Source: a virus
Virus record (IMG/VR): IMGVR_UViG_3300042905_005722
Span: 1-47,611 of that record
Strand: one strand, 5' to 3'
DNA: 47,611 bases
Shown here: one piece after another, positions 9,001 through 45,750 of the stretch
Layout of the letters: each line of letters begins with the position of its first letter
Numbering within the stretch: position 1 is the first letter of the stretch
Position numbers and translations under genes: made by a program
Notes under the pieces: model-generated
Seen by the model: the letters and a program-made list of their open reading frames with translations, nothing else
Told to the model about the DNA's origin: nothing
Databases searched by the model: none

Positions 9001-12000
9001 CCCCTCATCCCCGCCAACGATGAAAAGCGCTACCGTGAACTAGTCCGCATTTCGGACCCCACCCCTGAGCAAGAAGCCGAACGCATCGCCATCTTCCATC
9101 GCCGGCACAACGCTCGCAAAAGCACCGCAGAAACCCGCAACACCCAATGGCAACTCCCCGGCGGCACCAATCCCCAAGAAGTCGTCATCACCTGGAATCA
9201 GTCGTTACCACCTGAGCCGACCCATGAGGACCGCGCCAACTCCATGTCGCGCCGCGAATTGATCCAATGGTATCGCACGCATATTTTCGACGACATCCCC
9301 CAGGACGCCTCCGAAGACGCCGTCACAACCGAGCGGCTTCGACAATTGTTCATCCAAAACGCCACCCTCCACCCGAGCAACAACCCCTACTACAAAACGC
9401 CTCCACGCGTCTCCCCCAACTACCCCGAAGACACCACCCACTACGGCGACCTCGACGCCCTCGCCTGGTATCGCGCCAACGACCGCACCCTCGACGGCTC
9501 CCCCGGCCTCTTCGTCGAAGAATTCCAGTCCAAATGGCACCAGCTTGGACGGGACAAGGGCTATCGGGGGGACCGACAGGCTAATGGGCTTCCGACCGCT
9601 TTCACCCTCAAAGAAAACGCAGGGGGATGGAGCGTTTATGACGCACAAGGACGCGATGCAGGCTGGGCAGAAACACAAGAGGATGCTATCAAAGCAGCAC
9701 TGAAATACGAAGGAGGAAGTGATACCGGCATCCCCGACGCCCCCTACCGCACCGCCTGGCCCCTGATGCTTTTCAAGCGTGCCCTGCGCGACGCCGTCGA
9801 AGCCGGCAAAGCCTGGATCGGCTGGACCACCGGCGACACCCAAGCCGACCGCTACGACCTCAGCAAGCAGGTGGACCGAATTCGTTACATCCCGGGACAC
9901 CAACGACTGCTCGCCGACAAAGGCGGCACGAACGTGATCGACCAAACAGTGCCGCCCGAGAAACTCGCCGACCATGTAGGCAAGGACATCGCCGAACGCC
10001 TGCTCAACAACCCCACCCGCATCATTGACGCCCTCGGTGGCGCACAGCACGAACTCTCCGGCCTCGACCTCCGCGTCGGTGGCGAAGGCATGCGCAAGTT
10101 CTACGACGACATCCTCGTCAAAGAGTTCGGCAAATACGTCAAGCAGTGGGGCGGCAAGGTGGAGCAGTCTGAGATCAACACCAGCACCACGCTGTCCACC
10201 CCCGAATTTAAACCCATCTCAGGCAGCGACTGGGAAACATTCGCTGGCGCTGAGGCTTTCGCCAATGGTGACCGGCCTCTATTTGCGGAAACCACCATCA
10301 ATGTGGACGGCCAGCCGGAATCCGTGGTTGTCATCATCGATGCCAACGGTCTGCAAATGGTGTCATCTGAAGGCGAAACCAACTGGATGGCCCCCAATGA
10401 CGTTTTCCCCGGTCAGACTTCCTCCGGCTGGTGGCGCTCCGCCGCATCGGCCCAGTCCGCCGTCGAGATCGCCTGGAAAGTCGAAATGAGCAAGTTCTGG
10501 CGCGAACTCCAGCCCATTGTGGGCGAAGGCGTGGCCACCCCACGCCAAGGCACCACCCCCATCTGGCGCATCACCATCACCCCCCAGATGCGCGAGAGCG
10601 TCTCCCGCGGCCAGCCCCTCTTCGCCGCCACACGCTTCCCGCTCGACCGCGCCCTGGCACCCACCGCCACCGCCCCAAACGCCCTCTTCGCGCCGTCTCC
10701 CCGTCTCCCTGTCTCCCCGTCTCCAAGTCTGCTAAACGCCGCCTACACCGCCGCAGCACGCGGCCAGAGCAGCCAATGGCTGCCGATCCGCGCCGTCTTC
10801 GCCCAGGCCCGCCTCCTCGACCCACGCCTCACCCCGGACGCCTTCATGGCGGCCGTCAAGGCCGCCGACGACGCCGGCACGGTCTATCTCTCCCCGCCGG
10901 AGTCCGCCGCCACCGTCGCCGCCGCAGGCCCCTTCCAGCTTCGCAACGCCTCCGGCATCGTCGTCACGGACATGACACTGGCTCCGTCCGCGCTCGCCGC
11001 TTCAAATCGCCGCAACTCGCGACAAACCAGTGGCTTTCTAGCCCCGCAGGGTGTAGCTTGGAAGCATGGAGAATCTCGGCTTATTCAAGGGCTCGCCCAA
11101 GCAGACGCTTTCAAAGGAACAGGCGTTGGCCTTGTTTCGAGCGAATCAGAAAAACCGGAAACTTACACGCGTACCGGGCGATCAATTCCGCCCTACACCG
11201 AACGCGCAGACCTCTCCGACCTTGCCTACGAAGAAGCAAAGCTGATCGAACGCGCCAGTGCTGAAGGATTCTTCTGGGACAACGCCCAAGTCGAAAAAAT
11301 CATCGCCTACCTTGGCGACGCCGGCGGCGGCACCGAGCACGATGTTTACATCACTGGCGAAAAACGCCATCTGATCGTCATCCGCAGCACCATCCTCGAC
11401 AGCTACGGCTTCCAAGGCCGCTCTCCGGCTCAATACCTCCAGCGCCTCCAGAGCTACAACACCGCATTCCCCGGCATCCAGACGCGCATGATCGGCGTCT
11501 CACGCAACACGCGTGGCAACGGCGTCATCTGGACCGTTCAGCCCTTCGTCGAAGGCATCGAACTCAAGGATGACAAGCGCCTCCAAAGCCTCATGGAGGC
11601 CAAAGGCTGGGTCCGCATCGACGGCCCCGGCGACGACACCATCGTCTATCGCCACCCCCCGACCGGCGCCATCATTCGCGACGCCCACACTGGCAACATC
11701 CTCGTCAAAGGGAAAGAACTCTTCCCCATTGACGTCATCGTCACCAGCCTCGGCTCACTTTCCGAAGTCGCCCCGTCTCCCAGTCTCCTAGTCTCCCCGT
11801 CTTCGCCCCTCCCCGCCGCCCAGCGCGTCGAGCAGGCAGCCGCCCAAGTCGAACCCAATCCCACCCCAGCCCAGCAGGACGCCGGCAACTACCAGAAAGG
11901 CCACCTGCGCTGGAACGGCCTCGACCTCACCCTCGAAAACCCACGCGGCACCGAGCGCACCGGCCGCAGCAAAGATGGCCGCGAATGGTCCGTCACGCTG

Positions 12001-15000
12001 CCGCACCACTACGGCTACATCAAAGGCACCACCGGCAAGGACAAAGACCACATCGACTTCTTCATGGGGCCAAACCCCGACTCCGACCACGTCCTCATCA
12101 TCAACCAGCGGAAACTTGAAACTTCAAACCTGAAACTTGAAACTGGCGCAGCCGCCCAGTTCGACGAGCACAAAATCATGCTCGGCTTCCCGGACGCCGC
12201 CTCCGCCGCCCGCGGCTACCTCGCCGCCTACGAACCCGGCTGGAAAGGCCTCCAGTCCGCCGTCCCCACCACCGTCGCCGGCCTCAAACACTGGCTCACC
12301 CACGGCAACCACACCCGCCCCGCCAAACCCTCCGACATCCCCGTCAATGATGTCAGCAAAGTCAATCCGGTCCCTCTGACCGCAGCCGCCGCTGCCCGCC
12401 CAGCGACCACCCACACCCTCCCGGACGGCTACCACCTCACCGGCCCTGGCCTGCACCTCCTGCCCGCCAGCATCCGCGCCCACCACGGCACCCCGCACGA
12501 CATCCCGCTCGAGTCAGGCTTCTCCACCGCCAAAATCGGCTCCGGCGAAGGTGCCCAGGTCTATGGCTGGGGCCTCTACTTCGCCGAGGCCATGAAGGTC
12601 GCCGAGCAATACCGCAAGGCCCTCAGCTATCCCATTTTCCGCATTGGCGACAAAGAGTTCTTCCAGCGCGAAGGACCCGAGGCATTCAAAAAATGGGCCA
12701 TCGCCCATGTCGGCCAGGACTGGCCTCGCGCTGCCGTGCGCTACTTCGAGCACGCCGTGGACCAGTTCTACCACGACAGCACCACCTACGGCTACAGCTT
12801 CGACGCCGCCTCCAAACGTGCCAAAGACACGATCCGCAACTTGCTCGCGCAGGAACAGGTCGAGAGCTACCGCATCCAGGAGGTCACCGACGCGTTGAGC
12901 CGCATCACTGACAACGCCATCGACACCACCCCCTACGACTCCCTCGAAGGCCGTTGGACCGCCCGCGCCGTCGGATGGAAACCCGGCGAGGAATCGTTCT
13001 CCATAGACGCCAAAGCCTTCAACGACATCTGGAGCCGCCTTGGCTGGTATGCCGCCACGTTCGCCGACGCGCCTGCTCGATTGAAGTCCGAGTATGAAGC
13101 ACAACTCAACGTCCAGTCCGAGGAATATGACCGCCTCCTCGACAGTGGCAGGACCTCGGCGGACCCTATGGTTCTGGACACTTCCTCCCGCGTCCGCCTC
13201 GCCCAGGCCGCCCTCGACCTCCTGAACTCCGGCAAAGTCGTGCCCGAGGCTAACAAACGCCGCGGCAACCTTTACACCGTCGAACTCCTTGGTGACCCGG
13301 CTGAGTTTCTCGATTGGAATGACGACCTCATCAACCACCCCCAAGAAATCCAGCAGCGCTTCATGGACGCCCTGCTGCCCGTGATTGGACACCAAGTCGT
13401 CGATGGCCGACTGCCTGAATATCGCCGCTCGATGACCAGCACAGAATTTCCTTGGCTCGTGCTCAATACCAAAGGCTACTCGACCATGAACGACTACGCG
13501 ACCCGCGAGGAAGCGGAGCAAGGCCGCAAGGAACTCGATCACAATTACGCCTACCAGGACATCGGCAGCACCTACCGTGATGCCTCCCAACAAAAGGGCA
13601 TGACACCGCAAAAGGTGTCTGAGGCTCTAGCCAAGGCCGGCATCAAAGGCATCCGCTACACCGACGCCGCCAGCCGCTACCGCATCGAGAAAACCAGCCA
13701 CGCGTGGGAAGTGCTGACCAGTACGGGCAAACTGGTTGCCAAAGAACCCACCGAGGAAGCCGCTCGCGCCGCCATGGCCAAGCTGCAAACCTACAACTAC
13801 GTCCTCTTCGACGACAAACTCGTCAAGATCATCGAGCGCAACGGCCAACCCCTCTCCTCTTCTCCCAGTCTGGCCGCCTCCCCCCGCGCTCAACGCCTCC
13901 AGGCCTGGCAGAATGTCCCCGGCAAAGGCGATCCCGAATCGCTGCAGACAGGCTATATCAGCGGCAAGCACAACGCCACCATCGCCGCCCGCGCCAAAGA
14001 GCGGGGCGACATCGGGCTCCTCATCACGCCACTGATCCCCAGTTACCTCGCCCACACGACCGACTACCCATTCGTCGCCATCGACAACGGCGTCTTCTCG
14101 AAAGCCACGCCCTTCGACCCGGCGGCCTTCAAACAACTCGTCGACCGTGTGGCCGCCACACCAGCGGTGCGCGCCAAAACACTCTTCGTCGTCGCTCCAG
14201 ACGTCGTGGGAGACGCCGCCGCCACGCTCGACCGTTTCCCGGAATGGGCGCGCTTCATCCACGACAAACAACTGCCCGTCGCCCTCGCCGCGCAGGATGG
14301 CCTCGAGGACATCCGCGCCCGCATCCCATGGGATGACATCGACGTGCTCTTCATCGGCGGATCCACCGAATGGAAAACCGGCCAGATCGCCCCGGCAAAG
14401 CGGGCGGCCTGGGCCGGAATCTTCATGGAGGCCCACCGCCGGTCTATCCCCGTCCACATGGGCCGCGTGAATACCAACGACCGCATCGCCGGCATCGCCC
14501 AAATCGTCGGAGCCTCCACCGTCGATGGCACTTACCTCGCCTTCGGCCCGGATAAAAACCTGCCGAAACTCGAGCGCATGCTCGACCAGTTGAATGTCCA
14601 CGGCAACGACCTCGGTGCGCAGCAATTCCCCGAACTCGGTCGCGCTCCCAGCATCAACGAACTTTACGACATCGCCCTCGACGACACGATCATCTCGCCC
14701 GACCAACTCGGGGCCTACGAACCGGCCACCAAGGAAATCAACGCCATCCGCGTCTCGATGGGACTCCCCACCTTGGACGGCAAACGCGACCAGCAGCTCG
14801 AACTCGCCCTCTTCGCCTCCCCCCGCCCCCTCTCCGCCCTCAGCTCCACCGTTTCCCGCGCCGCCCAAACCACCTCCACCGCCGCGGCCTCCATCGCCCG
14901 CCTCACCGGCCTCGAAGCGCCGCTCGCCACCCTCGGCTCCAACAACCTCGACAAACGCCTCTCCGCCGCCCTCGACCGCGTCGCCGCGCCCAAGGTGAAC

Positions 15001-17775
15001 TCCGCCAAAGCCGCCGCCCTCGCCTGGCTGAACCAGACCGAAGGAGCCGCACCCACCGTGAAGGGCTTCATCGACCAGCTCCTGCCAAACGCCCTCATGC
15101 CCCGCGAATGGCTTGCCCTGAAGCACGAAATGGACCGCAAGGCCGCCTTCGGTGCCGAGCAGGCCAACGACCTCATCCGCGCCCTCAGCGACAAAGCCCG
15201 CCTCTCCGACCTCGCCTACCCGCCGGAGTTCTCCCAGGACCCCAAATGGCGCATGCAGATGTTCGACGCCATGGAGGGCAAACTCCCCCTGTCCAGCCTC
15301 CCCGAGCCGCTCCAGCGCCTCGCCGAGCGCCTCCGCACCATGCTGCGCCAGACCGGTGAGGAACTCGTGAAACAGGGCCTCATGAACCCGGACACCTTCG
15401 AGGAACTCCAGGCCAACGGCTGGATGCCCCGCTACACCGAGGACGAAGCCCTCGCCGCCGGCGGTTCCTTCCTGAAAGCCTTCAAGCTTGGCGTCCGCGA
15501 TCTCCTCCAGCAGCGCTCCACCGCCTACCACGTCGTCGATACCTCCCGCCGCGACCGCACCGGCCAATACGTCACCGTGAACCGCGAGGAAGGCGGCAAG
15601 CGCAACCGCTGGCGCTTCCGCGACAAAGCCCAGCGCGACGCCTGGTTCCAGACCTTCCTCCGCCAGCACATCCTGACCCAGCTTCGCGACGAGTCGCCGG
15701 AGGTGAAGGCGATGCTCACCCCCATGGGCCGCAACGACCGCGCCGCCGTGCGCGACCAGATCCGCAAGCTCACCCTCGACGACTTCGCCGCCAAAGAAGC
15801 GCTCTCCCCGGTCCTGCGTCGCATGATCAAGGACCTGAGCTACCAGGCCCAGCAGCGCTTCCAGACGGTCGATCCCTTCACCCCCGAAAAGCTCGTCAAA
15901 GACCCCGTCTATGCGGTCGCCCGCTACGTCCTCGGCCAGTCGCACAACGCCGCCACCATGGAACTCATGCGCTCCACCGCGGCGAACCCAGAATGGACCA
16001 CCGACGTGGACACCGCCGGCTTCACCCTCATTCCCGACAGCCCCCGCTTCGGACCCCTCGCCGGTAAATACCTGCGCGAGGACATCGCCCGCCAGATCCT
16101 TGACCTCGTGGACGTGCCAAACGCCGCCCTCCGCGCCTACGACGGCCTCCTGCGCAAATGGAAAGCCGCCAAGCTCGTCTGGAACCCCGGCTCCCATATC
16201 CGCGACGCCATCGGCAACACCGTGTTCGCCTACCTCGGCGGCAATTCCATCTGGAACCCCGGCAACTGGCAGCACTACCGCGACGCGATCCAGATCCTCC
16301 GCGAAGGCCAGTCCCAGGATGGCACCACCTTCGCCGAACTGCTCGAACAGCAGGTCCTCGGTGGTGACGCCTACTCCACCCAGGTCAAGGAGCGCCTGAA
16401 AGGCCTCCTACCCGACACCAAGACCATCGAGGATTTCAATCCCGGCCGCCTGCAGCGCACGCTGATGGGCTTCGGGTCGGCTTTCCACGGCACCAACGAA
16501 TGGCTCTCCGACATCCGACGAGTCCCTGACGACTTCTACAAGATCGCCGCTTACCTGCGCTACAAGAGCCAGTTCAAAAACTTGAAACCTGAAACTTCAA
16601 ACTTGGAACTCCAAAGCCGCGCAGCGGCTGAGGTCAGAAAGTGGTTCCCCTACTACGACCGCCTCGGCTCCAGTGGCACCACGAAGGCCATCGGTCGCTT
16701 CATTAACCCGTTCTTTTCGTTCTTCCGCGAGTCCACCCGCATCCTGCTCACCGCCGCCCACGAGCGCCCGCTGGCGCTCACCGCCGCCCTGGCATTCCCC
16801 GCCGCTTTGTCCTCGCTCTCCGCCATGCTCCTCGGCCTCGACGACCGCGACCGCGAAGAGATCGAAAAAGACCTCGCCGGACGCGGACTCGGCATCCTCG
16901 GCCTTGGCAATGCCCACCTGTTCTCCATCCTGCTGCCCATGCGCAGCAGCCAGGGCCAGGTGCAGCAGTGGGACATCTCCAGCACCATGCCCTTCGCCGA
17001 CCTCCTCGGCTCCCGCATCGTCCCGCTGGAAGAGAAAGAATCCGCGTTCCAGACCGCCTGGCGCAAGCTCCTCTCCGCCGGCCCCGTCATGGGCCTCGCC
17101 TACTCCTGGGCCACCAACCGCGACACATTCTCCGGCCGCCACATCGTCGAGGCTGACATGACGACGGGCGAACAACTCCGCGCCTACACTGGCCACGCCG
17201 CTGGCGTCATGCTCCCGCCGCTGGCGCCCGACCTCATCGGCGCAGGTCCGCTGAGCAGGGCAGGGGAGGTCCAGACCAACAAGACGCTCCAGACCTACGA
17301 CCCCACCCAGACCTGGCTGCGCTCGTTCTTCGGCCTCAACGTCAAGTCCGCCGAACCGAACCTCTACCGCCTCGCCGACGATTTCCGCGTCTCCCAGGGC
17401 ATCCAGAGCACCCAGGGCTACGACTACGGCACCACCCGCGAAAGCCGCGCCAAACGCGCCCTGGTGGCCGCCCTGGCCCAGCCGGAGCCGGATCTCGCCC
17501 GCGTCAAGGTGCTCGCCGAAAAGCTGCGCGAACTCGGCATCAGCCTCGCCACACCGAAGGACATCGAGAAGGTCCTCAAAATCATCGACCCCGCCCAGGT
17601 CATCGGCGGCGGCCACCGGAAGGACGGCACCGGCATCACCGCCGCCGACGCCCGCCAGCGCTTCCGCGCCAGCCTGCCCCCCGAGGCCCGCCAGAACTAC
17701 GAGCAGACCCTCCAACTCTACCAGCGCATCCTCGCCCGCGCCCCGGTCATCATCACCCGCGCCCGCAACCAGTAA
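1..17775 (+). CDS. Giant multidomain phage polyvalent protein (5' end outside window)
   Basis: The frame is open from base 1 to the TAA at 17773-17775. Residue numbers count from the GTG at 28, but the true start is probably upstream. Order of parts: helical region (EFLRMLVQDQAF near 530); coiled coil about 1000-1070; small beta-barrel-like region near 1560; D12-methylase-like 2225-2480; ADP-ribosyltransferase-like 2738-2875; polyvalent-associated blocks 2913-3535; kinase-like 3750-3910; pyrophosphatase-like 3945-4100; second ADP-ribosyltransferase-like 4150-4605; transglycosylase/DpdA-like 4626-4861; conserved helical C-terminal core 4970-5915 with a hydrophobic stretch at about 5583-5605. 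Pro/Ala/Ser-rich linkers separate the parts. Such polyvalent proteins of phages and conjugative elements are thought to enter the recipient cell with the DNA and counter host defences; that role is inferred here. GC at third codon positions drops sharply at 107-310, 7613-7840 and 11010-11200, where other frames look coding. No internal stop or frameshift is seen. Processing into smaller products is possible. Confidence 0.9.
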   Translation, partial: GRPIIKDSYVQNLRDDGLAAVADAIPSTETQTRNRYAQKPTAEGPQPASANQPGPQQPQPAAAQGAAPNAGSSTNAGPVQNPAQQGTQPTRSGSAPAQSGAPVAAEAPSTKAPTTEKAIADWLVDRYMPDKEAEAAAKAIAAHPQMAGKSFEDFNKMAGSQRDALFAELGITGSKAKSKAADDPLRYNSASADPFAAAKANANKAADELLNAVNKSKTTSPEDIADALAKAQAAYDDTIEGTSERAAAEKRIAYLRERQVVADLAPVKASVKAKEITEADATAAAAQAVEASGQTLTHSTLRQALELGLGWTTERSNVAAHNHLGTKDQSETPLATGDRADTANRPQPTPFSDEGKDPSAARMGPDLSIKSKSPLRKNSAYSRSKLLTLARIKDPAKKAWARQAFAAMEDSFQRHHALYDAIAVGPAAVRRLNGSMTAVEEIDGRITRLLDLDAIVANFDYLSNPADAIRATGIEEDIHAVVLRLARTQPEKYGREAIRRQWRSLPQMLRAQVWQAYDYGRTTMPAKLTAAQEYHMQNEFLRMLVQDQAFAQAITETVDTPTTLVAWIRDLLRDLSKTLRDLMGLVDAPLRAELEGMVAQIADQLRIYEGKSRGNEDRLATLDYLRDPAGIALQAMENGVLFDHLAKTDPSLSPEAMARAFDLLTPELQSIAYRAYRSSKQPGTKNQERKENKSDLLRHLLTAMTGDRSVSREVQTALLASSDRLGFPPELEFAQFIQGGTNEGGSMPNARQRARIEAAEAEGREETPAGGHGSLMVWPDEAQFVRKHGFGRTHLNTTALAMYQAAKAGSQPAMDRHARLLVRELTEELGESPENAQNTADTLMSAAKMAAGTMQGERGRPAGEAPGTTSSTADSQRGYLPASTRSTNLLSRLVSRLTQRTEAPPADLLALLKQQPEAARKTLASLHARLLRASADLAGAQFAQSQTITPATLARQVAAAVTSTPPPPPAPAVNTAPQSRPVPRTPLAITEAPRPGASRPAYVNPQAIDAMVADMADRRQRIAEVEEALAKRDAEIEAFAKRNKIDNLVTAKYKLEEQERREAERRKVIAENRAKFFLRDNALREIEQARQNGRNVEKESLMFLLGTGQIGRRRGAADLRLMGESEKRMLAALGIGVDTATDGGYYYTLSRLKSALLAVEYTLDGSAERQLALDELDYVRQQPVEWQTAPDDSKPAYVQWHRGWEHLIIRDSALADLALTMPNVAAAIPHSESERRATLGLPAQPAPTTERPVSAEKKQDSPSPTPTASPTHTRVEARDETTPVEAPPAARAPAARPSPKARIPLGGKLSLPAEFASQDDLDAFNYQLDRESLLRETTTAAERRKATERIQSLRARLIDESGATKEAIEQKLADYHRAVIDGAKKADPVEVYRPTPFHAFAGAITDTSEATLPAPVGGDIISGMKAQGIRHLGPPDNSDGWAWYRELKADAAMSKMKPREANRLAKAGDITDAKARLAWIDMHVVSQTGGRSIDEAAAELNESEYQQFPITSGEELGRAIMDAIATRLTARDAAPDPVVQAEKQAIQQGGDFRAVAEGAPGQPFTGRTLAARVQTGDEIQIGSEWLTVTDIDAEEGTVALDSDRYGPQAIEPDQTIRLRAIGDESLSDSPATRSTVAQPSLSDLQNDPDVIAARDELLAAMREAGMLSASDRMGAIGYVNDNGSVSLKFGQLSKLRHSETKHAQNTFRYVAAEGTVFWWKTPTELEQEAVAAEFERRGYSSPRHKNILTSDTESSLKTQDLIHGKLPASHRFTPEEIATVREELASNRLDDAYQGGNAWFHPRTQKWINLGMEPHFMAAPMIHQWGYGPAMVDGWARVVTETNSRGERTLGVEFYGPLTRRIQRVMFDTALTRGIDPDNIAYDPHAERYYGKKYDDETGDLLSASPRQLEKLRDDVLRSNLLESRMRGPRAWLTPRAEWINVQEHREVFPPKPHILHSYDAMHQAGFVRVAHSMLLHAEFHTGRLTPAQRRELENTAIERQTELSLDPQPLPASPRFRNAASQFADTAWNKNIRSFPAFLDFAAKTVPEAFPVLKTPHLRSAWNTILNEKDFPEITRAEEADALRPYGSPKIERRFGEMPPDIAARDESITPESLGIPTVKLAKQAKPVPPTDLLGNPIAEHEEEDEDESGDSEDKVQNRGSTELQRLQAIDELYGPLAPGVEVMETQNQDGDTVPHIMRGRGLMLAIDGQPHVAIRSVALPSIGTGHAPGVRFLPLAGDKSNWTGHINKALRIADPQLDDHTDIYIEPYGGGLVYLQNLEPLLRTTKPVFIASSQEFEPDRNLIYTTLQRGDAAALADIQAILSDINHKPQTDAGEALVRVFYTKSKKRIVRKLSPGAAAQLPNLVALLQRPNVKILPWNDVQTFERATAFAQQGKRVTLLEDSNYADLYAEKTQDQYKDIDTHPDMFNAGKITDFIGKDPKKLLTQKLPVYRAVLDAGGTVIATNNMNPDLINGLLAEFGDAGHWFGYAHRTRPVPDGFMRHPDGKGVLWSTERPEYLAILRKGVVNPTTGAPKYGTDTSAGLDYRTGPRRLLEGLDRAAQPRRTPSPHTGGSLEAAQSLRGPTHTNGPSPSAGPVPGSDGKKTDPRTPVLDATMSGGPDWDFTQSAQVAAELDAGWRSADERDAEMMAAGGIDDTEDAITLDELERAEIERQRQFYRDINGNTRPEALQASRRIHPATGQPLAASSRKKGPTFPGLKKPTLPAPTPRPELFDEWAAALGYANSLYGYRGEPTPGERTGYGNTEGNGIYLMRSRDEAEPFGHVRRVQFPEPHRPFLVTGDDLYLLNESEDLDQPIDPAKDTPWLQASKYAAQHAHNLGKGRWDAQLAGDILTKLLMESGYDSVYVKGMPDDWVVLLRTTRPGQKPLAPLPASARTPSDAGTSARTSPRLAAAPREVEPGFYSKLEQVITDKLPAKGNSPASVKALLENNGVKTDEIKWSGLLPWLQEQAKTGPIAQSALLDYLRTQGAVKFSVTQLGGPLIPANDEKRYRELVRISDPTPEQEAERIAIFHRRHNARKSTAETRNTQWQLPGGTNPQEVVITWNQSLPPEPTHEDRANSMSRRELIQWYRTHIFDDIPQDASEDAVTTERLRQLFIQNATLHPSNNPYYKTPPRVSPNYPEDTTHYGDLDALAWYRANDRTLDGSPGLFVEEFQSKWHQLGRDKGYRGDRQANGLPTAFTLKENAGGWSVYDAQGRDAGWAETQEDAIKAALKYEGGSDTGIPDAPYRTAWPLMLFKRALRDAVEAGKAWIGWTTGDTQADRYDLSKQVDRIRYIPGHQRLLADKGGTNVIDQTVPPEKLADHVGKDIAERLLNNPTRIIDALGGAQHELSGLDLRVGGEGMRKFYDDILVKEFGKYVKQWGGKVEQSEINTSTTLSTPEFKPISGSDWETFAGAEAFANGDRPLFAETTINVDGQPESVVVIIDANGLQMVSSEGETNWMAPNDVFPGQTSSGWWRSAASAQSAVEIAWKVEMSKFWRELQPIVGEGVATPRQGTTPIWRITITPQMRESVSRGQPLFAATRFPLDRALAPTATAPNALFAPSPRLPVSPSPSLLNAAYTAAARGQSSQWLPIRAVFAQARLLDPRLTPDAFMAAVKAADDAGTVYLSPPESAATVAAAGPFQLRNASGIVVTDMTLAPSALAASNRRNSRQTSGFLAPQGVAWKHGESRLIQGLAQADAFKGTGVGLVSSESEKPETYTRTGRSIPPYTERADLSDLAYEEAKLIERASAEGFFWDNAQVEKIIAYLGDAGGGTEHDVYITGEKRHLIVIRSTILDSYGFQGRSPAQYLQRLQSYNTAFPGIQTRMIGVSRNTRGNGVIWTVQPFVEGIELKDDKRLQSLMEAKGWVRIDGPGDDTIVYRHPPTGAIIRDAHTGNILVKGKELFPIDVIVTSLGSLSEVAPSPSLLVSPSSPLPAAQRVEQAAAQVEPNPTPAQQDAGNYQKGHLRWNGLDLTLENPRGTERTGRSKDGREWSVTLPHHYGYIKGTTGKDKDHIDFFMGPNPDSDHVLIINQRKLETSNLKLETGAAAQFDEHKIMLGFPDAASAARGYLAAYEPGWKGLQSAVPTTVAGLKHWLTHGNHTRPAKPSDIPVNDVSKVNPVPLTAAAAARPATTHTLPDGYHLTGPGLHLLPASIRAHHGTPHDIPLESGFSTAKIGSGEGAQVYGWGLYFAEAMKVAEQYRKALSYPIFRIGDKEFFQREGPEAFKKWAIAHVGQDWPRAAVRYFEHAVDQFYHDSTTYGYSFDAASKRAKDTIRNLLAQEQVESYRIQEVTDALSRITDNAIDTTPYDSLEGRWTARAVGWKPGEESFSIDAKAFNDIWSRLGWYAATFADAPARLKSEYEAQLNVQSEEYDRLLDSGRTSADPMVLDTSSRVRLAQAALDLLNSGKVVPEANKRRGNLYTVELLGDPAEFLDWNDDLINHPQEIQQRFMDALLPVIGHQVVDGRLPEYRRSMTSTEFPWLVLNTKGYSTMNDYATREEAEQGRKELDHNYAYQDIGSTYRDASQQKGMTPQKVSEALAKAGIKGIRYTDAASRYRIEKTSHAWEVLTSTGKLVAKEPTEEAARAAMAKLQTYNYVLFDDKLVKIIERNGQPLSSSPSLAASPRAQRLQAWQNVPGKGDPESLQTGYISGKHNATIAARAKERGDIGLLITPLIPSYLAHTTDYPFVAIDNGVFSKATPFDPAAFKQLVDRVAATPAVRAKTLFVVAPDVVGDAAATLDRFPEWARFIHDKQLPVALAAQDGLEDIRARIPWDDIDVLFIGGSTEWKTGQIAPAKRAAWAGIFMEAHRRSIPVHMGRVNTNDRIAGIAQIVGASTVDGTYLAFGPDKNLPKLERMLDQLNVHGNDLGAQQFPELGRAPSINELYDIALDDTIISPDQLGAYEPATKEINAIRVSMGLPTLDGKRDQQLELALFASPRPLSALSSTVSRAAQTTSTAAASIARLTGLEAPLATLGSNNLDKRLSAALDRVAAPKVNSAKAAALAWLNQTEGAAPTVKGFIDQLLPNALMPREWLALKHEMDRKAAFGAEQANDLIRALSDKARLSDLAYPPEFSQDPKWRMQMFDAMEGKLPLSSLPEPLQRLAERLRTMLRQTGEELVKQGLMNPDTFEELQANGWMPRYTEDEALAAGGSFLKAFKLGVRDLLQQRSTAYHVVDTSRRDRTGQYVTVNREEGGKRNRWRFRDKAQRDAWFQTFLRQHILTQLRDESPEVKAMLTPMGRNDRAAVRDQIRKLTLDDFAAKEALSPVLRRMIKDLSYQAQQRFQTVDPFTPEKLVKDPVYAVARYVLGQSHNAATMELMRSTAANPEWTTDVDTAGFTLIPDSPRFGPLAGKYLREDIARQILDLVDVPNAALRAYDGLLRKWKAAKLVWNPGSHIRDAIGNTVFAYLGGNSIWNPGNWQHYRDAIQILREGQSQDGTTFAELLEQQVLGGDAYSTQVKERLKGLLPDTKTIEDFNPGRLQRTLMGFGSAFHGTNEWLSDIRRVPDDFYKIAAYLRYKSQFKNLKPETSNLELQSRAAAEVRKWFPYYDRLGSSGTTKAIGRFINPFFSFFRESTRILLTAAHERPLALTAALAFPAALSSLSAMLLGLDDRDREEIEKDLAGRGLGILGLGNAHLFSILLPMRSSQGQVQQWDISSTMPFADLLGSRIVPLEEKESAFQTAWRKLLSAGPVMGLAYSWATNRDTFSGRHIVEADMTTGEQLRAYTGHAAGVMLPPLAPDLIGAGPLSRAGEVQTNKTLQTYDPTQTWLRSFFGLNVKSAEPNLYRLADDFRVSQGIQSTQGYDYGTTRESRAKRALVAALAQPEPDLARVKVLAEKLRELGISLATPKDIEKVLKIIDPAQVIGGGHRKDGTGITAADARQRFRASLPPEARQNYEQTLQLYQRILARAPVIITRARNQ
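107..310 (+). CDS. Small protein encoded inside the giant gene (+1 frame), first of three
   Basis: A 67-residue frame from ATG 107 to TAG, offset +1 from the giant frame. It reads as an ordinary small helical protein (LSPQQRKVLHQTL, FKILLNKGLSRHEAGVLLHNL), while the giant frame over the same bases is a Pro/Ala/Gln-rich linker. Third codon positions are mostly G/C in this frame and much less so in the giant frame, which favours this frame as the selected one. No clear Shine-Dalgarno sequence precedes it, but most genes here lack one. Function unknown. Confidence 0.55.
   Translation: MPKNPPPKDHSLPAQINPDLSNLSPQQRKVLHQTLAAAPTQAQFKILLNKGLSRHEAGVLLHNLALR
4868..4930 (+). repeat. Cluster of TCGCT/AGCGA palindromes inside the giant gene
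   Basis: GAGTCGCT and AGCGACTC form a palindrome around 4878, followed by further AGCGA and TCGCT copies to about 4930. The tract encodes a Ser/Thr-rich linker (DESLSDSPATRSTVAQPSLSD) between the barrel-like region and the next globular part. It looks like an inserted short repeat that happens to keep the frame. Confidence 0.6.
6700..7467 (+). other. Domain: D12-class adenine methylase-like fold with altered catalytic motif
   Basis: Residues 2225-2480 of the giant protein. A start resembling the FxGsK region of Dam-type enzymes (FLPLAGDKSNWTGHINKAL) is followed by EPYGGG at 2259, the usual SAM-binding EPFxG motif. The DPPY catalytic motif appears to be replaced by DSNY at 2395, followed by a GGTVIATNN strand. 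The domain may have lost N6-adenine methylation or work on a different substrate. The family call rests on motif order only. Confidence 0.45.
7610..7840 (+). CDS. Small protein encoded inside the giant gene (+1 frame), second of three
   Basis: A 76-residue frame, ATG 7610 to TAG 7838-7840, starting MEQTPQQDLTIGQAHGGYW. An AGGAG sequence at 7596-7600 lies 9 bases before the ATG, one of the better Shine-Dalgarno matches in the window. The product looks globular and amphipathic (VLTQEEASKLLNHS, LAQVLDRCLAA). The giant frame across the same bases is low complexity with many A/T third positions. It sits right after the D12-like domain. An in-frame ATG of the giant frame follows at 7849, which could be an internal start. 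Function unknown. Confidence 0.65.
   Translation: MEQTPQQDLTIGQAHGGYWKDLIAQHNLVERQVLTQEEASKLLNHSVDQPIPTDLAQVLDRCLAATAKKPIPAPQS
8239..8652 (+). other. Domain: ADP-ribosyltransferase-like, first copy
   Basis: Residues 2738-2875. The YRGE start at 2741 and the GNGIYLMRSRDEAEPFG stretch match the usual ART pattern of an R-containing first strand followed by G-x-Y-x-(T/S)-x3-A-x2-(Y/F)-G. The domain ends in a strand with VVLLR. Transfer of ADP-ribose from NAD to a target is the family activity; the target is unknown. A REP-like hairpin-coding insert follows at once (8700-8719). Confidence 0.5.
8700..8719 (+). repeat. REP-like hairpin inside the giant gene
   Basis: TGCGGGCA, loop CTTC, then TGCCCGCA gives a perfect 8-bp stem. 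It lies in a linker-coding stretch right after the first ART-like domain. It resembles repetitive extragenic palindromes, but only one copy was found here. Confidence 0.55.
8764..10632 (+). other. Domains: large-polyvalent-protein-associated blocks
   Basis: Residues 2913-3535. The first block has the pattern FYSKLEQVI ... WSGLLPWL ... LLDYL, found again and again in phage polyvalent proteins. The second has FVEEFQSKWHQLGRDKGYR, then GIPDAPYRTAWPLMLFKRAL, AWTTG-like IGWTTGDTQADRY, GEGMRKFYDDIL and a closing ITPQMRESV. Two extra segments interrupt the second block: about 50 residues around 3180-3230 and about 90 residues around 3390-3490. Function is unknown in the family. Confidence 0.6.
10694..10730 (+). 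repeat. 8-bp tandem tract (CGTCTCCC type) inside the giant gene
   Basis: Four degenerate copies of CGTCTCCC in a row encode a Pro/Ser linker (SPRLPVSPSPSL). The same motif family recurs at 11774-11804, around 13850-13884, and near 22973-23020. It marks domain boundaries rather than domains. Confidence 0.7.
11066..11245 (+). CDS. Small protein encoded inside the giant gene (+1 frame), third of three
   Basis: A 59-residue frame, ATG 11066 to TGA 11243-11245, starting MENLGLFKGSPKQTLSKEQA. The middle is strongly basic and helical (LALFRANQKNRKLTRVPGDQ). Third positions are richer in G/C here than in the giant frame, which in this stretch is a poorly structured linker before the kinase-like domain. 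A GGA four bases before the ATG is a weak ribosome site. The tail after about residue 42 may be non-conserved. Function unknown. Confidence 0.5.
   Translation: MENLGLFKGSPKQTLSKEQALALFRANQKNRKLTRVPGDQFRPTPNAQTSPTLPTKKQS
11275..11757 (+). other. Domain: protein-kinase-fold-like
   Basis: Residues about 3750-3910. GGGTEHDVYITGEKRHLIVI resembles a glycine-rich loop followed by the lysine strand. RDAHTGNILV at 3884-3893 resembles the HxDxxxxN catalytic loop of atypical kinases, and PIDVIV at 3901 the metal-binding Asp motif. Kinase-like domains occur in polyvalent proteins. Activity is not certain because the catalytic loop is atypical. Confidence 0.5.
11774..11804 (+). repeat. 8-bp tandem tract (CGTCTCCC type), second copy
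   Basis: Degenerate CGTCTCCC/AGTCTCCT units encode SPSLLVSPSS between the kinase-like and pyrophosphatase-like domains. Same unit and same kind of place as the tract at 10694. Confidence 0.7.
11860..12330 (+). other. Domain: inorganic-pyrophosphatase-like
   Basis: Residues about 3945-4100. QQDAGNYQKGHLRW, GLDLTLENPRG, HYGYIKGT, KDKDHIDFFMGP and FDEHKIMLGF give, in order, the conserved pattern of the pyrophosphatase-like domain found in polyvalent proteins. The acidic residues of DKDHIDFFMGP and FDEHK are kept. An 18-residue insertion encoded by a 7-bp tandem repeat (12112-12144) splits the domain just before FDEHK. Confidence 0.65.
12112..12144 (+). repeat. 7-bp tandem tract (AACTTGA type) inside the pyrophosphatase-like domain
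   Basis: Units AACTTGA, AACTTCA, AACCTGA and AACTTGA repeat at 7-bp spacing over 33 bp. The length is a multiple of three, so the frame survives. It encodes KLETSNLKLET just before the conserved FDEHK motif. A sister tract of the same length lies at 16578-16610. Confidence 0.8.
12475..13842 (+). other. Domain: ADP-ribosyltransferase of polyvalent type, second copy
   Basis: Residues 4150-4605. AHHGTPHDI, FSTAKIGSGEGAQVYGWGLYFAE and VAEQYR form the typical opening of the polyvalent ART family. GIKGIRYTDAASR and NYVLFDDKLVKI form the typical closing strands. Two inserted modules of about 40 residues lie near 4469-4505 and 4550-4588. Established family activity is ADP-ribosyl transfer; the target here is unknown. 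Confidence 0.65.
13903..14610 (+). other. Domain: tRNA-guanine transglycosylase / DpdA-like TIM barrel
   Basis: Residues 4626-4861. Recognisable in order: FVAIDNGVFSK, FVVAPDVVGDAAATL (4720), VALAAQDG (Asp 4757), FIGGSTEWK (4775-4783), VHMGRVNT (4809) and STVDGTYL. This series is the one I associate with phage proteins of the transglycosylase superfamily, including DpdA, which exchanges guanine in DNA for a 7-deazaguanine. No QueC/D/E or FolE homologue is visible in the window, so preQ0 would have to come from the host or from the missing part of the genome. Confidence 0.6.
16578..16610 (+). repeat. 7-bp tandem tract (AACTTGA type), second copy
   Basis: Units AACTTGA, AACCTGA, AACTTCA and AACTTGG repeat over 33 bp and encode NLKPETSNLEL inside the helical C-terminal core. 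This is nearly the same peptide as at 12112-12144, so both copies use the same reading phase of the repeat. Confidence 0.8.
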
Positions 17776-27649: not shown

Positions 27650-28783
27650 ATGCCCGAAACCTGGATCAAATTCCGCGACGACCTCGATACCGACCCCCGA
27701 GTCGCCCGCATGGCTGTGCTGCTCAACCAGACCGCCGCCAGTTACGTCCTGGCCACCGAGGCCCGCGACCTGTTCGAACGCGTGACGAAGGCCGTGACGC
27801 GTCACGCTATGCGTGACGTGACGCTCGCCGGACTCGCACGCGTCTGGAGTCACGCCAACCGTCACACCCAGGATGGAGTGTTCCGTCACACCGGCCTCGA
27901 CTACCTCGATGACCTCGCACGCATCCCCGGCTTCGGCCGCGCCATGCAAGCCGTCGGCTGGGCCTGCCACGACCCCGAAACAGACACCGTCACACTGCCC
28001 AATTTCATCGAGCACAATGCGCCGGACAAGAACGGTCAGCGCTCGCAAACCGCCGCCGCACGCCGCGCCCAGCGCTACCGCGACCGCATCAAAAACCAGC
28101 CATCGCCGGCCGCCGATCCGCCCATCACGGACGACCGTGAGCGTGACGCCGTCACGTTACGCGTCACGCCGACCGTAACGCCTGAGAGCGTGACGCATCA
28201 CGTAACGCGTAACGTGACGCCTTCTATATCTTACTCTTCCTCTATCTCTGGTACTGGTACTGGTACGGTACCGGAAGGGGAATCCAGAGGGGAAACCCCA
28301 ACCACCACTCCCAACCCGCTCGAAGCCATCGACGAGGCCAAACGCCGCATCAACCGACTCCGGCAAAGCTGGCACAAGCTGCCCCACTGGTCCGCCGAAG
28401 AGGACGCTGCTCTCTACGCGGCCCTCGGCAACCTCCGCGCTTTGGAGGACCAGGACTGGTGCATCCTTGCCTACTGGCTGCGCTGGGCGCACTCGGCGGC
28501 CAACACCCAGAGCAAAGATCCCGTTCGCGTGACGTCACGCCGTCACGCCTTCGTCACGGACCTGCCCGCCTACCTCGACCGCGCCGTCACACATTGGAAG
28601 CAGTGCGGCTGCCCAAAGCTGAACGCGGACGGCACAATTCGGAAAGCGACCAGCGCCACACCTGCCGCGCCGACCGTCTCCCCCGAGCCGGAAGGCATGT
28701 CCGACGACTTCCGAGCCATGCTCACCGACCTGAAGATCCCGCCCCGCCAACCCACCGTCGCAACAAACCCCGCCGCCGCATGA
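27650..28783 (+). CDS. Phage replication initiator / replisome organiser-like protein
   Basis: 377 residues. The opening WIKFRDDLDTDPRVARMAVLL, with LARVWSHANRHTQDGVF and DYLDDLARIPGFGRAMQAVGW, is the layout of phage replication organisers with an N-terminal winged helix. AARRAQRYRDR follows, then a Val-Thr-rich stretch (RVTPTVTPESVTHHVTRNVTP, about 165-190) encoded by an array of CGTNACG motifs. The C-terminal half is helical (EEDAALYAALGNLRALEDQDWCILAYWL). As in lambda O, the gene itself may contain the origin. It would load a helicase at that origin; no helicase gene is seen in the window. Stop overlaps the antirepressor start. Confidence 0.6.
   Translation: MPETWIKFRDDLDTDPRVARMAVLLNQTAASYVLATEARDLFERVTKAVTRHAMRDVTLAGLARVWSHANRHTQDGVFRHTGLDYLDDLARIPGFGRAMQAVGWACHDPETDTVTLPNFIEHNAPDKNGQRSQTAAARRAQRYRDRIKNQPSPAADPPITDDRERDAVTLRVTPTVTPESVTHHVTRNVTPSISYSSSISGTGTGTVPEGESRGETPTTTPNPLEAIDEAKRRINRLRQSWHKLPHWSAEEDAALYAALGNLRALEDQDWCILAYWLRWAHSAANTQSKDPVRVTSRRHAFVTDLPAYLDRAVTHWKQCGCPKLNADGTIRKATSATPAAPTVSPEPEGMSDDFRAMLTDLKIPPRQPTVATNPAAA
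27781..28560. repeat. Iteron-like CGTNACG array inside the initiator gene (candidate origin)
   Basis: Three clusters: 27781-27823 (five CGT(G/C)ACG copies, including the palindrome GTGACGCGTCAC), 28142-28219 (about nine copies with G, C, A or T at the variable base), and 28528-28558 (four copies). Right after the middle cluster comes a lower-GC pyrimidine-rich stretch (28221-28249) and three GGTACT-type tandem units ending in GGTACC (28249-28270). Repeats next to an easily melted stretch within the initiator gene is the classic layout of a phage origin. Confidence 0.6.
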
Positions 28784-29532
28784 ACACCACCCTCCAAACC
28801 TTCACCTTCGCCGGCACCCACCCGATCCGAACCGTCATCGAGGACGGCGAAATCCGGTTCGTGATGCATGATATTTGTAACGCTCTAGGGCTTACTAATC
28901 CGACCATGGCGGCACAATATCTCGCTGAGGATGAGAGGGGTCTAAGCATTACTGAGACCCCCTCCGGCACCCAAACAATGGTCAGCATCACCGAGTCGGG
29001 CCTCTACGCGCTCGTGTTCAAAAGTCGCAAACCCGAAGCTCAAAAGTTCCGCAAGTGGGTGACCGCCGAAGTCCTCCCCGCCTTGCGCCAGACCGGCTTC
29101 TACAGCATGCCCCAGACCGCGCCGCAGTTTCACCTGCCGCAGACCTTCGCCGAGGCCCTCCGGCTGCTGGCCGATAGCCACGAGCAGGCCGAGGCGCTCA
29201 AACTCCAGGTCGAGGCCGCCAAACCGGCGGTCGAGTTCGTGGACCGGTTCGTCGACGCCCAAGGAACGTTCGGCATCCGCGAGACAGCCAAACTCATGGG
29301 AATGCCGCAGAACGAGTTCGTCGCCGAGTGCCTGCGCCACCGGATCCTGTTCCGCGAAAACGGCCACCTCCAACCCTACGCCGAGCACCGAAGGGACGGT
29401 TACTGCGCTCTCAAGGCTGGCGAAGCCAACGAGCATGCCTTCACCCAGACCCGCTTCACCGCCAAAGGCATCGAATGGCTGCGCCGCCGCCTGCACTGCC
29501 CGCCCACCACCCTCCAACTCGTCGCCGCATGA
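28780..29532 (+). CDS. BRO-N / KilAC phage antirepressor
   Basis: 250 residues from ATG 28780, overlapping the previous stop. Residues 1-110 are a BRO-N domain (FVMHDICNALGLTNPTMAAQYL, GLYALVFKSRKPEAQKFRKWVTAEVLPALRQTG). Residues about 130-250 form a KilAC/ANT-type domain (AEALRLLADSHEQAE, FGIRETAKLMGMPQNEFVAECLRHRILFREN, TAKGIEWLRRRL). Such proteins bind DNA or repressors and favour lytic growth. The BRO part has visibly lower GC (28860-28960), a sign of separate origin of the two halves. Confidence 0.85.
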   Translation: MNTTLQTFTFAGTHPIRTVIEDGEIRFVMHDICNALGLTNPTMAAQYLAEDERGLSITETPSGTQTMVSITESGLYALVFKSRKPEAQKFRKWVTAEVLPALRQTGFYSMPQTAPQFHLPQTFAEALRLLADSHEQAEALKLQVEAAKPAVEFVDRFVDAQGTFGIRETAKLMGMPQNEFVAECLRHRILFRENGHLQPYAEHRRDGYCALKAGEANEHAFTQTRFTAKGIEWLRRRLHCPPTTLQLVAA

Positions 29533-36831: not shown

Positions 36832-38079
36832 ATGAACGCCCCCAGCACCGCACGAGTTCACCGCCATCCGGACCCGCAGAAGGGCCGGTACTGGACCGCC
36901 TATTTTTCAGCCTGGGACGCCGAGCAACAGCGCTGGAAAACCGTCTCCAAAAGCACCCGCAGCACCGACCGGACCAAAGCCCTGGAGGTCGCCCGCGAGT
37001 TTGAGCGTGTCGCGCTGGCCGCCGGAGGCCCGACCGGCACAGTGCGTCTATCGCGTGAGCAGATCCAGGACACCATCGACAGCATCCTCCGCATCGCCGG
37101 ACACCGTCCCATTGTCCACAGCCGGACCTGGCAGCAGCACTCCGAGGCATGGCTGGACGCCCAGAACAAACGAATCCCCAAGACCCTGACTCTTCGGACT
37201 TGGCAGACCTACAGCGGCCACATCAAAAATTTCGCCAACTGGCTCGGCGACGATCTGGCGACCATGCCTCTTCTGGGCCTGACCGGCGACCACCTCCAGC
37301 GCTGGTATCACGACGGCCTCGCAGCAGGTCTGAGCGCCGGGACGATGAACAACACCGCCACGACGCTCTCCAGCGTTTTCCAGCATGCCATCGACGAGGG
37401 CATCGCCACTCGAAATCCCGTCAATCTGATAAACCGGGACGACAGCGGTCGCAATACCCGCGACGCGTTCAGCCTCGATCAGATGGACCGCATCCTGACG
37501 CACCTGCGGAAAACCAAGCAGCAAGACTGGCTGACGGTGGCCCTGCTGGGTTTCTGCACGAGCCAGCGCCTCGAGGACTGCGCCCACGCCGTGCGGACGG
37601 CGTTCGAGCAGGCCCAGTTCGGCAAGCTGGGCCAATGGTGGGTGTGGACGCTGACGCAGCGCAAGACCGGCAAGGTCATCCGCATTCCGCTGGTCGAGCC
37701 GCTAGCCTCCCACATCGCCGACCTCATGAGCTCACCGCCGCACGACCTACTCCTGGCACCATCGCTGGCCCGCGACACCGCCGGCGGATGGCAGGACAGT
37801 CTGTCGGCGCAATTCGCCGAGATTTTGAACGAGTGCGGCATCGCCGGCCGCCATGTGCCAGGGAAGGGGAAGGGACGCGCCTTCAACAGCCTCACATTCC
37901 ACAGCACACGACACACCTGCAACAGCCTCCTTGCCGAAGCCGGCGTCCCGGCCGATATCCGCCTCCTGATCACCGGCCACGGCGACAAGCGCACCAACCT
38001 CGGATACACCCACCTCACCGACACGACGAAGGCCAAAGCTCTCCAGAAAGCCTTCCAACGCCGCGGGAAGGCCGCGTGA
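36832..38079 (+). CDS. int: Tyrosine-type phage integrase
   Basis: 415 residues. Catalytic pattern in order: R246 (TSQRLEDC), K278 (QRKTGK), H357-x-x-R360 (FHSTRHT), H383 (ITGHGD) and Y392 (GYTH). The N-terminal part has an arm-binding-like region, then a core-binding domain (about 95-200). It catalyses recombination between attP and a host attB, here a tRNA-Gly gene, by a covalent 3'-phosphotyrosine intermediate. It stands next to the tRNA fragment, divergent from the 36.3-36.5 kb genes. Its stop directly abuts the stop of the convergent late operon. GGAGTA repeats precede its start. Confidence 0.92.
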   Translation: MNAPSTARVHRHPDPQKGRYWTAYFSAWDAEQQRWKTVSKSTRSTDRTKALEVAREFERVALAAGGPTGTVRLSREQIQDTIDSILRIAGHRPIVHSRTWQQHSEAWLDAQNKRIPKTLTLRTWQTYSGHIKNFANWLGDDLATMPLLGLTGDHLQRWYHDGLAAGLSAGTMNNTATTLSSVFQHAIDEGIATRNPVNLINRDDSGRNTRDAFSLDQMDRILTHLRKTKQQDWLTVALLGFCTSQRLEDCAHAVRTAFEQAQFGKLGQWWVWTLTQRKTGKVIRIPLVEPLASHIADLMSSPPHDLLLAPSLARDTAGGWQDSLSAQFAEILNECGIAGRHVPGKGKGRAFNSLTFHSTRHTCNSLLAEAGVPADIRLLITGHGDKRTNLGYTHLTDTTKAKALQKAFQRRGKAA

Positions 38080-44847: not shown

Positions 44848-45750
44848 TTAATACCCTTTCTTCGTGCGGATTTTCGCCGGGAAGGTGTGCTTCCTGGCGT
44901 TGGTTTTTTCGATGTGCAGGCCCCTGGCCCGTTGGTAGCGCAGCGTCGCGTCCTCCTTCGAGGCCGATCCTAGCCAAAGCTGGCTGCCTTTGAGATTTTC
45001 CTCGCAGAACGCCACCACGGTGGCCTCCTCGGCAGGCAGGACCGGCAGTTCGGTGGTGCTGGCTAGCATCGCGGTCGTGATCGCGGTCGGCCACAGCCGG
45101 CGCTGGAACCGCACGGAATACACCGCATCAGGCTGCGGCCAGAGCCGCAGGATGTAGAGCGGAGTCCCGCCGCCGGTCAGACCGTTGAGTGACTCGACCC
45201 ACCAGCGCTCCGGCGTGCCAATCTCAAATTTGAGCGCCTTGCTTTCGTCCGACCAGTCAGGAATGCCGTACTCCAGCATCTGGCTGCCGGTCTCCCAGAG
45301 CAGCATCACCTGGCCCTCGACAGCGTCCTCCAGGTAGCCAAGCTGGATCGCATCGCTGCGCACTTCCAGCGTCGTGGATCCCGTGGCGCCTTCGTGATGC
45401 ACCATCAGCGTGTTCAGAGCCTGCAGCCGATTGTAGCGACTGCTATCGTTGCCGACGACCACCGTGCGGCCCAGGTAGGACGACTGGTCGGCCCAGGATG
45501 GCGCGAAGGCGATGGTGCGGCTGCCCGCCGTCACGGTGATGTCCTTGGTCACCGCGGCGGCCAGTCGTTCGACCTTGACCTCGGTGCGCCGATGGTCCGG
45601 CAGACCGGACACAAACTCGGCGAGACCCTCATTCACGGCCTGCACGAGCCAGCGCTGCTGCGTGCTCGACATGGACGCCGGCACCGTGGACAGGTTCCGC
45701 GAGCAGTCGGTAAGCAGTTCGGCGATGGTCATGACAATCAGCAGCAGCAT
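44848..45750 (-). CDS. Head-tail adaptor-like protein
   Basis: 300 residues if the ATG at 45750 is used; ATG 45732 (MTIAELL) is an equally good start. MTIAELLTDCSRNL followed by TQQRWLVQAVNEGLAEF and long beta-rich sequence (VTAGSRTIAFAPSWADQSSYLGRTVVVG, YILRLWPQPDAVYSVRFQRRLWP) is the layout of adaptor or tail-tube A-like proteins of podoviruses and siphoviruses. Located two genes downstream of the capsid gene, as expected. Confidence 0.55.
   Translation of the reverse strand: MLLLIVMTIAELLTDCSRNLSTVPASMSSTQQRWLVQAVNEGLAEFVSGLPDHRRTEVKVERLAAAVTKDITVTAGSRTIAFAPSWADQSSYLGRTVVVGNDSSRYNRLQALNTLMVHHEGATGSTTLEVRSDAIQLGYLEDAVEGQVMLLWETGSQMLEYGIPDWSDESKALKFEIGTPERWWVESLNGLTGGGTPLYILRLWPQPDAVYSVRFQRRLWPTAITTAMLASTTELPVLPAEEATVVAFCEENLKGSQLWLGSASKEDATLRYQRARGLHIEKTNARKHTFPAKIRTKKGY

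Follow-up and report, generated by a model that had tools for sequence, protein, structure and literature searches.

A CGTNACG array inside a phage replication initiator-like gene: a probable in-gene origin whose DNA word is paired with a short basic helix

The initiator-like gene and its surroundings

The window analysed here, a record of an uncultivated virus, spans 47,611 bases and carries on its plus strand, at 27650–28783, a gene for a phage replication initiator-like protein of 377 aa, recognised through PHROG, tblastn and BFVD matches. The protein matched PHROG 2509 ('replication initiation protein') with an E-value of 9.7e-24 over residues 46–149, with further matches to PHROG 9474 and PHROG 2447. 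In tblastn it shared 29–42% identity with initiators of the epsilon15, phiPSA1, CP2 and TL-2011b type, and its fold matches in BFVD were replisome organizer, primosomal protein 1 and DUF1376 entries. Neither Pfam nor the PDB sequences yielded a match, and no PDB match reached significance in the fold search, the N-terminal domain giving only weak MarR-like fold matches there. By sequence match this domain is of the PHROG 2509 type, and a role as initiator is predicted for the protein.

The AlphaFold2 model contains a winged-helix-like N-terminal domain (residues 5–122, encoded at 27662–28015, plus strand), with pLDDT values of 94–97 across residues 50–120. This is followed by a predicted basic helix (residues 126–149, 28025–28096, plus strand), modelled as one unbroken helix that includes the basic stretch TAAARRAQRYRDRIK, encoded at 28049–28093, and in which R139 and R144 are invariant. 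Most of residues 169–221 have pLDDT values <50 and are predicted to be disordered.

Directly after the initiator-like gene lies an antirepressor gene (Bro-N plus KilAC, 28780–29532), followed by a gene matching a PHROG of unknown function; no gene for a P-like or DnaC-like helicase loader was recognised just downstream of the initiator, and a DnaC-like gene is present in the phiPSA1 and Carin1 relatives. Elsewhere, the window encodes a 5915 aa open reading frame (28–17775, plus strand; no Pfam match within the first 1800 aa), a DHH phosphoesterase-like phage protein (32619–33635, PHROG 4771, E-value 7.6e-36) and a tyrosine integrase (36832–38079), beyond which the genes are on the minus strand, including an SU10 adaptor-like gene (44848–45750), and the GC skew changes sign. 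The cumulative GC skew changes at about 38–42 kb and has its minimum near 41–42 kb, where the gene orientation flips, and since the skew tracks gene orientation it is uninformative on the position of an origin.

CGTNACG clusters, the adjoining tract and selection on the DNA

The original prediction placed about eighteen CGTNACG motifs in three clusters inside an initiator-like gene, and our exact count within this PHROG 2509 gene was indeed 18 copies in three clusters. By motif count these are cluster 1 (5 copies, 27781–27823), cluster 2 (9 copies, 28142–28219) and cluster 3 (4 copies, 28528–28558), all given on the plus strand. Cluster 1 falls within the coding sequence of the N-terminal domain and encodes an insertion which, in the alignment, is present in array-bearing relatives, cluster 2 encodes the linker predicted to be disordered from its pLDDT, and cluster 3, in the C-terminal part, is not general among relatives. 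The whole window contains 33 copies versus 14.8 expected, with 18 of these 33 concentrated in 2.4% of the sequence.

A pyrimidine-rich stretch and GGTAC repeats had been described as following the array, and both are real (28220–28249 and 28250–28272, plus strand), but they adjoin cluster 2 only, with cluster 3 lying approximately 260 bases beyond. In a stability scan, no other 50 bp of the gene were as unstable as those from position 28221 (z of 3.5, 99.9th percentile of the window). The pyrimidine-rich tract is a candidate unwinding element, against which its A+T content of only 56% counts. In the relatives, the A+T content rises by 12 to 15 points for the 50 bp just after the array and then drops back, and most relatives carry a polypurine tract, AGAGAAGAG, at the corresponding position, with AGAGAAG observed 83 times versus 11 expected, or 7-fold over the codon expectation. 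The GGTAC repeats are short, and nothing similar to them was found in the relatives. Hairpins with perfect stems of 6–10 bp are located just after the purine tract in some relatives, among them L135, L167, L170 and L237, and stems of 7–10 bp are reached in some; these were rejected as a feature, as the mean stem length at this position (6.0) is hardly above that of other windows of the gene (5.4).

The protein segments encoded by the array are rich in V-T repeats, and 11 of the 18 copies are read in the V-T frame, with cluster 2 encoding a disordered linker, which would fit an array that arose secondarily, from selection acting on a V-T-rich linker peptide. The remaining copies are read in the other two frames (5 as R-x and 2 as xNA), and all three frames are likewise used across the family (111:78:21 over 26 non-redundant genes, counting that of the window). 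The spacing between copies peaks at 5, 7, 10–11 and 12 bp (34, 27, 25 and 28 observed versus 2.7, 1.3, 1.1 and 3.8 expected). In 2000 synonymous-codon shuffles, with protein and codon usage fixed, the gene contained 4.00 ± 1.67 CGTNACG copies with a maximum of 9, versus 18 in the real gene. The comparison of synonymous variation across the motifs, which the original prediction had put forward as a check, revealed strong constraint inside the motif: synonymous third positions differed between relatives in 6/215 comparisons inside CGTNACG versus 502/1791 outside (2.8% versus 28%, a 10-fold reduction), in pairs which share sequences and are thus non-independent, with the direction being identical in every gene tested. 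The free central N of the motif differed in 7/58 cases, between the inside and outside rates. In an earlier divergence test, based on distant pairs, turnover of the copies within the arrays blurred the outcome.

Two sister motifs occupy the corresponding places in other subfamilies (see below) and are constrained in the same way, with 37/370 synonymous differences inside versus 1636/4440 outside for TGCGGAC, and 1/715 versus 3550/8231 for GCGTTAC, the latter constraint being stronger than that on CGTNACG. Loss of the motif from relatives that keep the peptide had been named as the pattern that would speak against an array maintained as DNA; in the relatives the array is kept and the frame of the peptide varies. 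The use of three frames, the excess over codon shuffles, the nearly frozen synonymous sites and the presence of other words in sister subfamilies together leave a peptide-driven array as a hardly credible explanation, which we rejected on the basis of the shuffles and the frozen sites. Selection on the DNA, and not on the peptide, thus maintains the CGTNACG copies, and these data support the view, put forward in the original prediction for the VT-rich segment, that the V-T, R-N, R-D and R-H repeats of the protein are a by-product of the DNA sites.

DNA words, basic helices and arrays in other proteins

A search of viral contigs with the single protein returned no relatives, and an alignment-based search returned 45 viral relatives, the best with 48% identity. 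Relatives with an AxRxxxYRER helix have 3–19 in-gene copies of CGTNACG, usually at several-fold to tens of times the density of the flanks. The epsilon15-type initiators (PHROG 2509; Salmonella phage epsilon15, Xanthomonas phage CP2 and Escherichia phage TL-2011b) share the N-terminal domain family and the layout of domain, basic helix, in-gene sites and purine-rich tract, but differ from the window in their basic helix and in their in-gene word, with CGTNACG being replaced by TGCGGAC in the epsilon15-type and by GCGTTAC in the TL-2011b/CP2-type relatives. These two words are positioned in the part encoding the N-terminal domain and recur at the basic helix or beyond it, spaced by 11–12 bp, and in each subfamily the in-gene sites occupy two places approximately 200–300 bases apart. 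We found no description of the in-gene words TGCGGAC and GCGTTAC of epsilon15-type initiators in the open-access literature.

Three helix classes, AERQRRYRERK, DRKRxxRK and RVxxHRK, are paired with CGTNACG, TGCGGAC and GCGTTAC, respectively. The helix class matched the word in 26/26, 40/44 and 25/25 genes with no cross-over, although the classes largely coincide with clades, so that this match alone amounts to few independent events. We subsequently applied the rule unchanged to an independent set of 75 relatives from a genome collection, 55 of which could be assigned to a helix class, and the expected word was found in 6/8, 35/40 and 5/7 of these, again with no cross-over. This bears on the alternative in which a host factor recognises the repeats, or in which they represent a word related to methylation or restriction, rather than sites for a phage protein. 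The GTNAC contained in CGTNACG is a restriction enzyme site, which would fit such a role, but the word tracks the helix class of the phage protein and not the host, with classes A, B and C all present in proteobacterial prophages, and the loci with arrays range widely in GC content. We therefore consider a host-directed word very unlikely, and sites for the phage protein remain the preferred reading.

Three close CGTNACG copies, irrespective of the protein encoded, were found at at least 80 loci in IMG/VR, and the figures for array loci given here are among the matches listed. Open reading frames over these arrays matched PHROGs for replication initiation (9474, 2509, 2447, 3926 and 1408), primosomal proteins (3992, 9327 and 6451) and a DnaD-like protein (10469), as well as Pfam DUF1376, with replication proteins at at least 29 of the 80 listed loci, as judged from the PHROG matches of single proteins or from their alignment to the family of the window gene. 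When a model of the basic peptide of this family was compared with the 4893 open reading frames of the listed array loci, the best 21 matches were all array-bearing, as are only 195 (4%) of the 4893; matches were typically located 5–30 aa from the array, many of them in proteins with unrelated N-terminal domains. Arrays of the control palindrome GCTNAGC exist, yet no basic-peptide match was obtained in GCTNAGC loci. Only 4 of 56 open reading frames over GCTNAGC arrays (L353 and others) matched PHROG 9327, the commonest primosomal family, and this palindrome may represent a further word class.

The reverse scan, for codons specifying ERQRRYRERK, identified 14 places in IMG/VR; at nine of these, CGTNACG is found within 450 bases of the peptide, either in multiple copies or as close pairs. 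Peptide and CGTNACG occur together without a recognised initiator domain in L342, L346 and L350; the remaining places have a single or only distant CGTNACG (L340, L341, L345 and L348) or none (L352), and CGTNACG arrays without the basic peptide are found in L046, L059 and L063. The L342 gene (2599–3060) is a 145 aa open reading frame with the basic peptide and no recognised domain, with 18 CGTNACG copies inside it and 22 within 450 bases of the peptide. A tblastn search of phages and plasmids with a 31 aa peptide-plus-array query gave no matches, and a second peptide scan gave two, both known family members.

Since the same motif and helix are found in proteins lacking the N-terminal domain, the word goes with the basic helix and not with this domain. 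The best reading is that word recognition is linked to the basic helix (about residues 126–149) rather than, or not only, to the winged-helix domain, and in the simplest reading the helix itself would read CGTNACG. Basic regions of eukaryotic bZIP proteins are likewise short Arg-rich helices, which recognise a small palindromic site with TNACG half-sites, but this resemblance is a lead only; the protein studied here comes from a bacterial virus, has no leucine zipper and shows no demonstrated homology. Membership of the bZIP family was rejected, as in the AlphaFold2 model no zipper follows the basic helix, which stops at residue 149 and gives way to disorder.

In-gene CGTNACG arrays are also present in three terminase small subunit genes (PHROG 1496; L043, 3614–4150; L089, 7058–7843; L016, 3–548), with the AERQRRYR basic peptide in L043 and L089 and a related peptide in L016. 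This peptide-plus-array pair means that such an array alone is no proof of an origin, and the sites could instead serve packaging, partition or recombination, the initiator annotation being only loosely right. Phage P22 offers a precedent, its pac site being located within its own small-terminase gene (PMC9611059), a recognition site in the gene of the recognising protein, as proposed for the arrays; pac is, however, a single 22-bp asymmetric sequence and not an array (PMC9611059). The window gene is no terminase but matches PHROG 2509, and the array-bearing open reading frames scanned individually are mostly of replication initiation, primosomal or DnaD-like type, which renders a transaction other than replication improbable for the window. 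The terminase cases indicate that such arrays are putative binding-site arrays, the use of which would be set by the protein carrying the helix, and in the terminases they are possibly in-gene packaging sites.

A probable in-gene origin and its relation to known systems

In phage lambda the origin is located inside gene O and comprises four 18-bp iterons together with an AT-rich region of 39 bp, and in Stx phages extra iterons accompany extra residues in O (PMC7466680, PMC6022878). The original prediction that the gene follows the lambda O principle holds, in that repeats, an unstable tract and an initiator are combined in one gene, as in ori-lambda. Repeated palindrome-like sites, conserved as DNA, are located in the middle of the initiator coding sequence, a low-stability tract adjoins them, as in a lambda-O-type origin, and the initiator is expected to bind them, a prediction drawn from the way in which basic helix and motif vary together. 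The window family differs from lambda in its 7-bp CGTNACG sites with variable spacing of 5, 7 or 10–12 bp, present in 3–19 copies in two or three clusters, and in the part linked to specificity, which in the window protein is a short basic helix after a winged-helix-like domain. The 377 aa protein was not placed in the lambda O family, as its PHROG matches are not O-like and the Pfam and PDB searches described above gave no significant match.

DNA-level constraint and the matching of protein and site would also fit an operator array, where the protein would bind within its own coding sequence to repress transcription of the gene or set its timing, with the origin located elsewhere; an array of in-gene sites would also suit a transcriptional road-block. 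The sites are, however, deep within the gene and not at a promoter, they occupy two places approximately 200–300 bases apart in each subfamily, a low-stability tract adjoins them, and the proteins are of replication and primosome types, all of which makes an operator rather unlikely, if the least improbable of the alternatives. Given a DNA-protected array and a word paired with the basic helix, the gene very probably contains the replication start site of the phage. We propose that its product is a phage replication initiator whose binding sites lie within the gene itself, most likely as the phage replication origin. Carried by a winged-helix and/or oligomerising domain, the basic helix would bind the palindromic 7-bp sites, and protein bound along the dense array, at spacings of 5, 7 and 10–12 bp, would stress the adjacent low-stability tract. 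This tract would then open, and the C-terminal part may recruit a helicase or the primosome, in the manner of O at ori-lambda.

More broadly, the helix of approximately 20 residues (AERQRRYRERK-type) and the CGTNACG array in the same gene may form a portable phage module that has moved between unrelated proteins and tethers its recipient to one place in the genome, with sister helices and their other words representing a readable specificity code; we give this proposal about an even chance. The recipients would, on an equally balanced estimate, be winged-helix proteins, DUF1376/primosomal proteins, short initiators, terminase small subunits and small unknown proteins. No description of such a helix-word module was found in the open-access literature, and the helix-plus-array module appears to be new, the principle of an in-gene origin being already known.

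These pairings would allow candidate replication origins, or perhaps packaging sites, to be placed in uncultivated phages from sequence alone, and they predict which few residues of an initiator read which DNA word. They also offer an explanation for the low-complexity V-T, R-N and R-D segments of phage initiators, which would arise where the ribosome translates DNA sites. Should the helix bind in the predicted way, it would constitute a short, portable DNA-recognition element of bacterial viruses, present in otherwise unrelated proteins.
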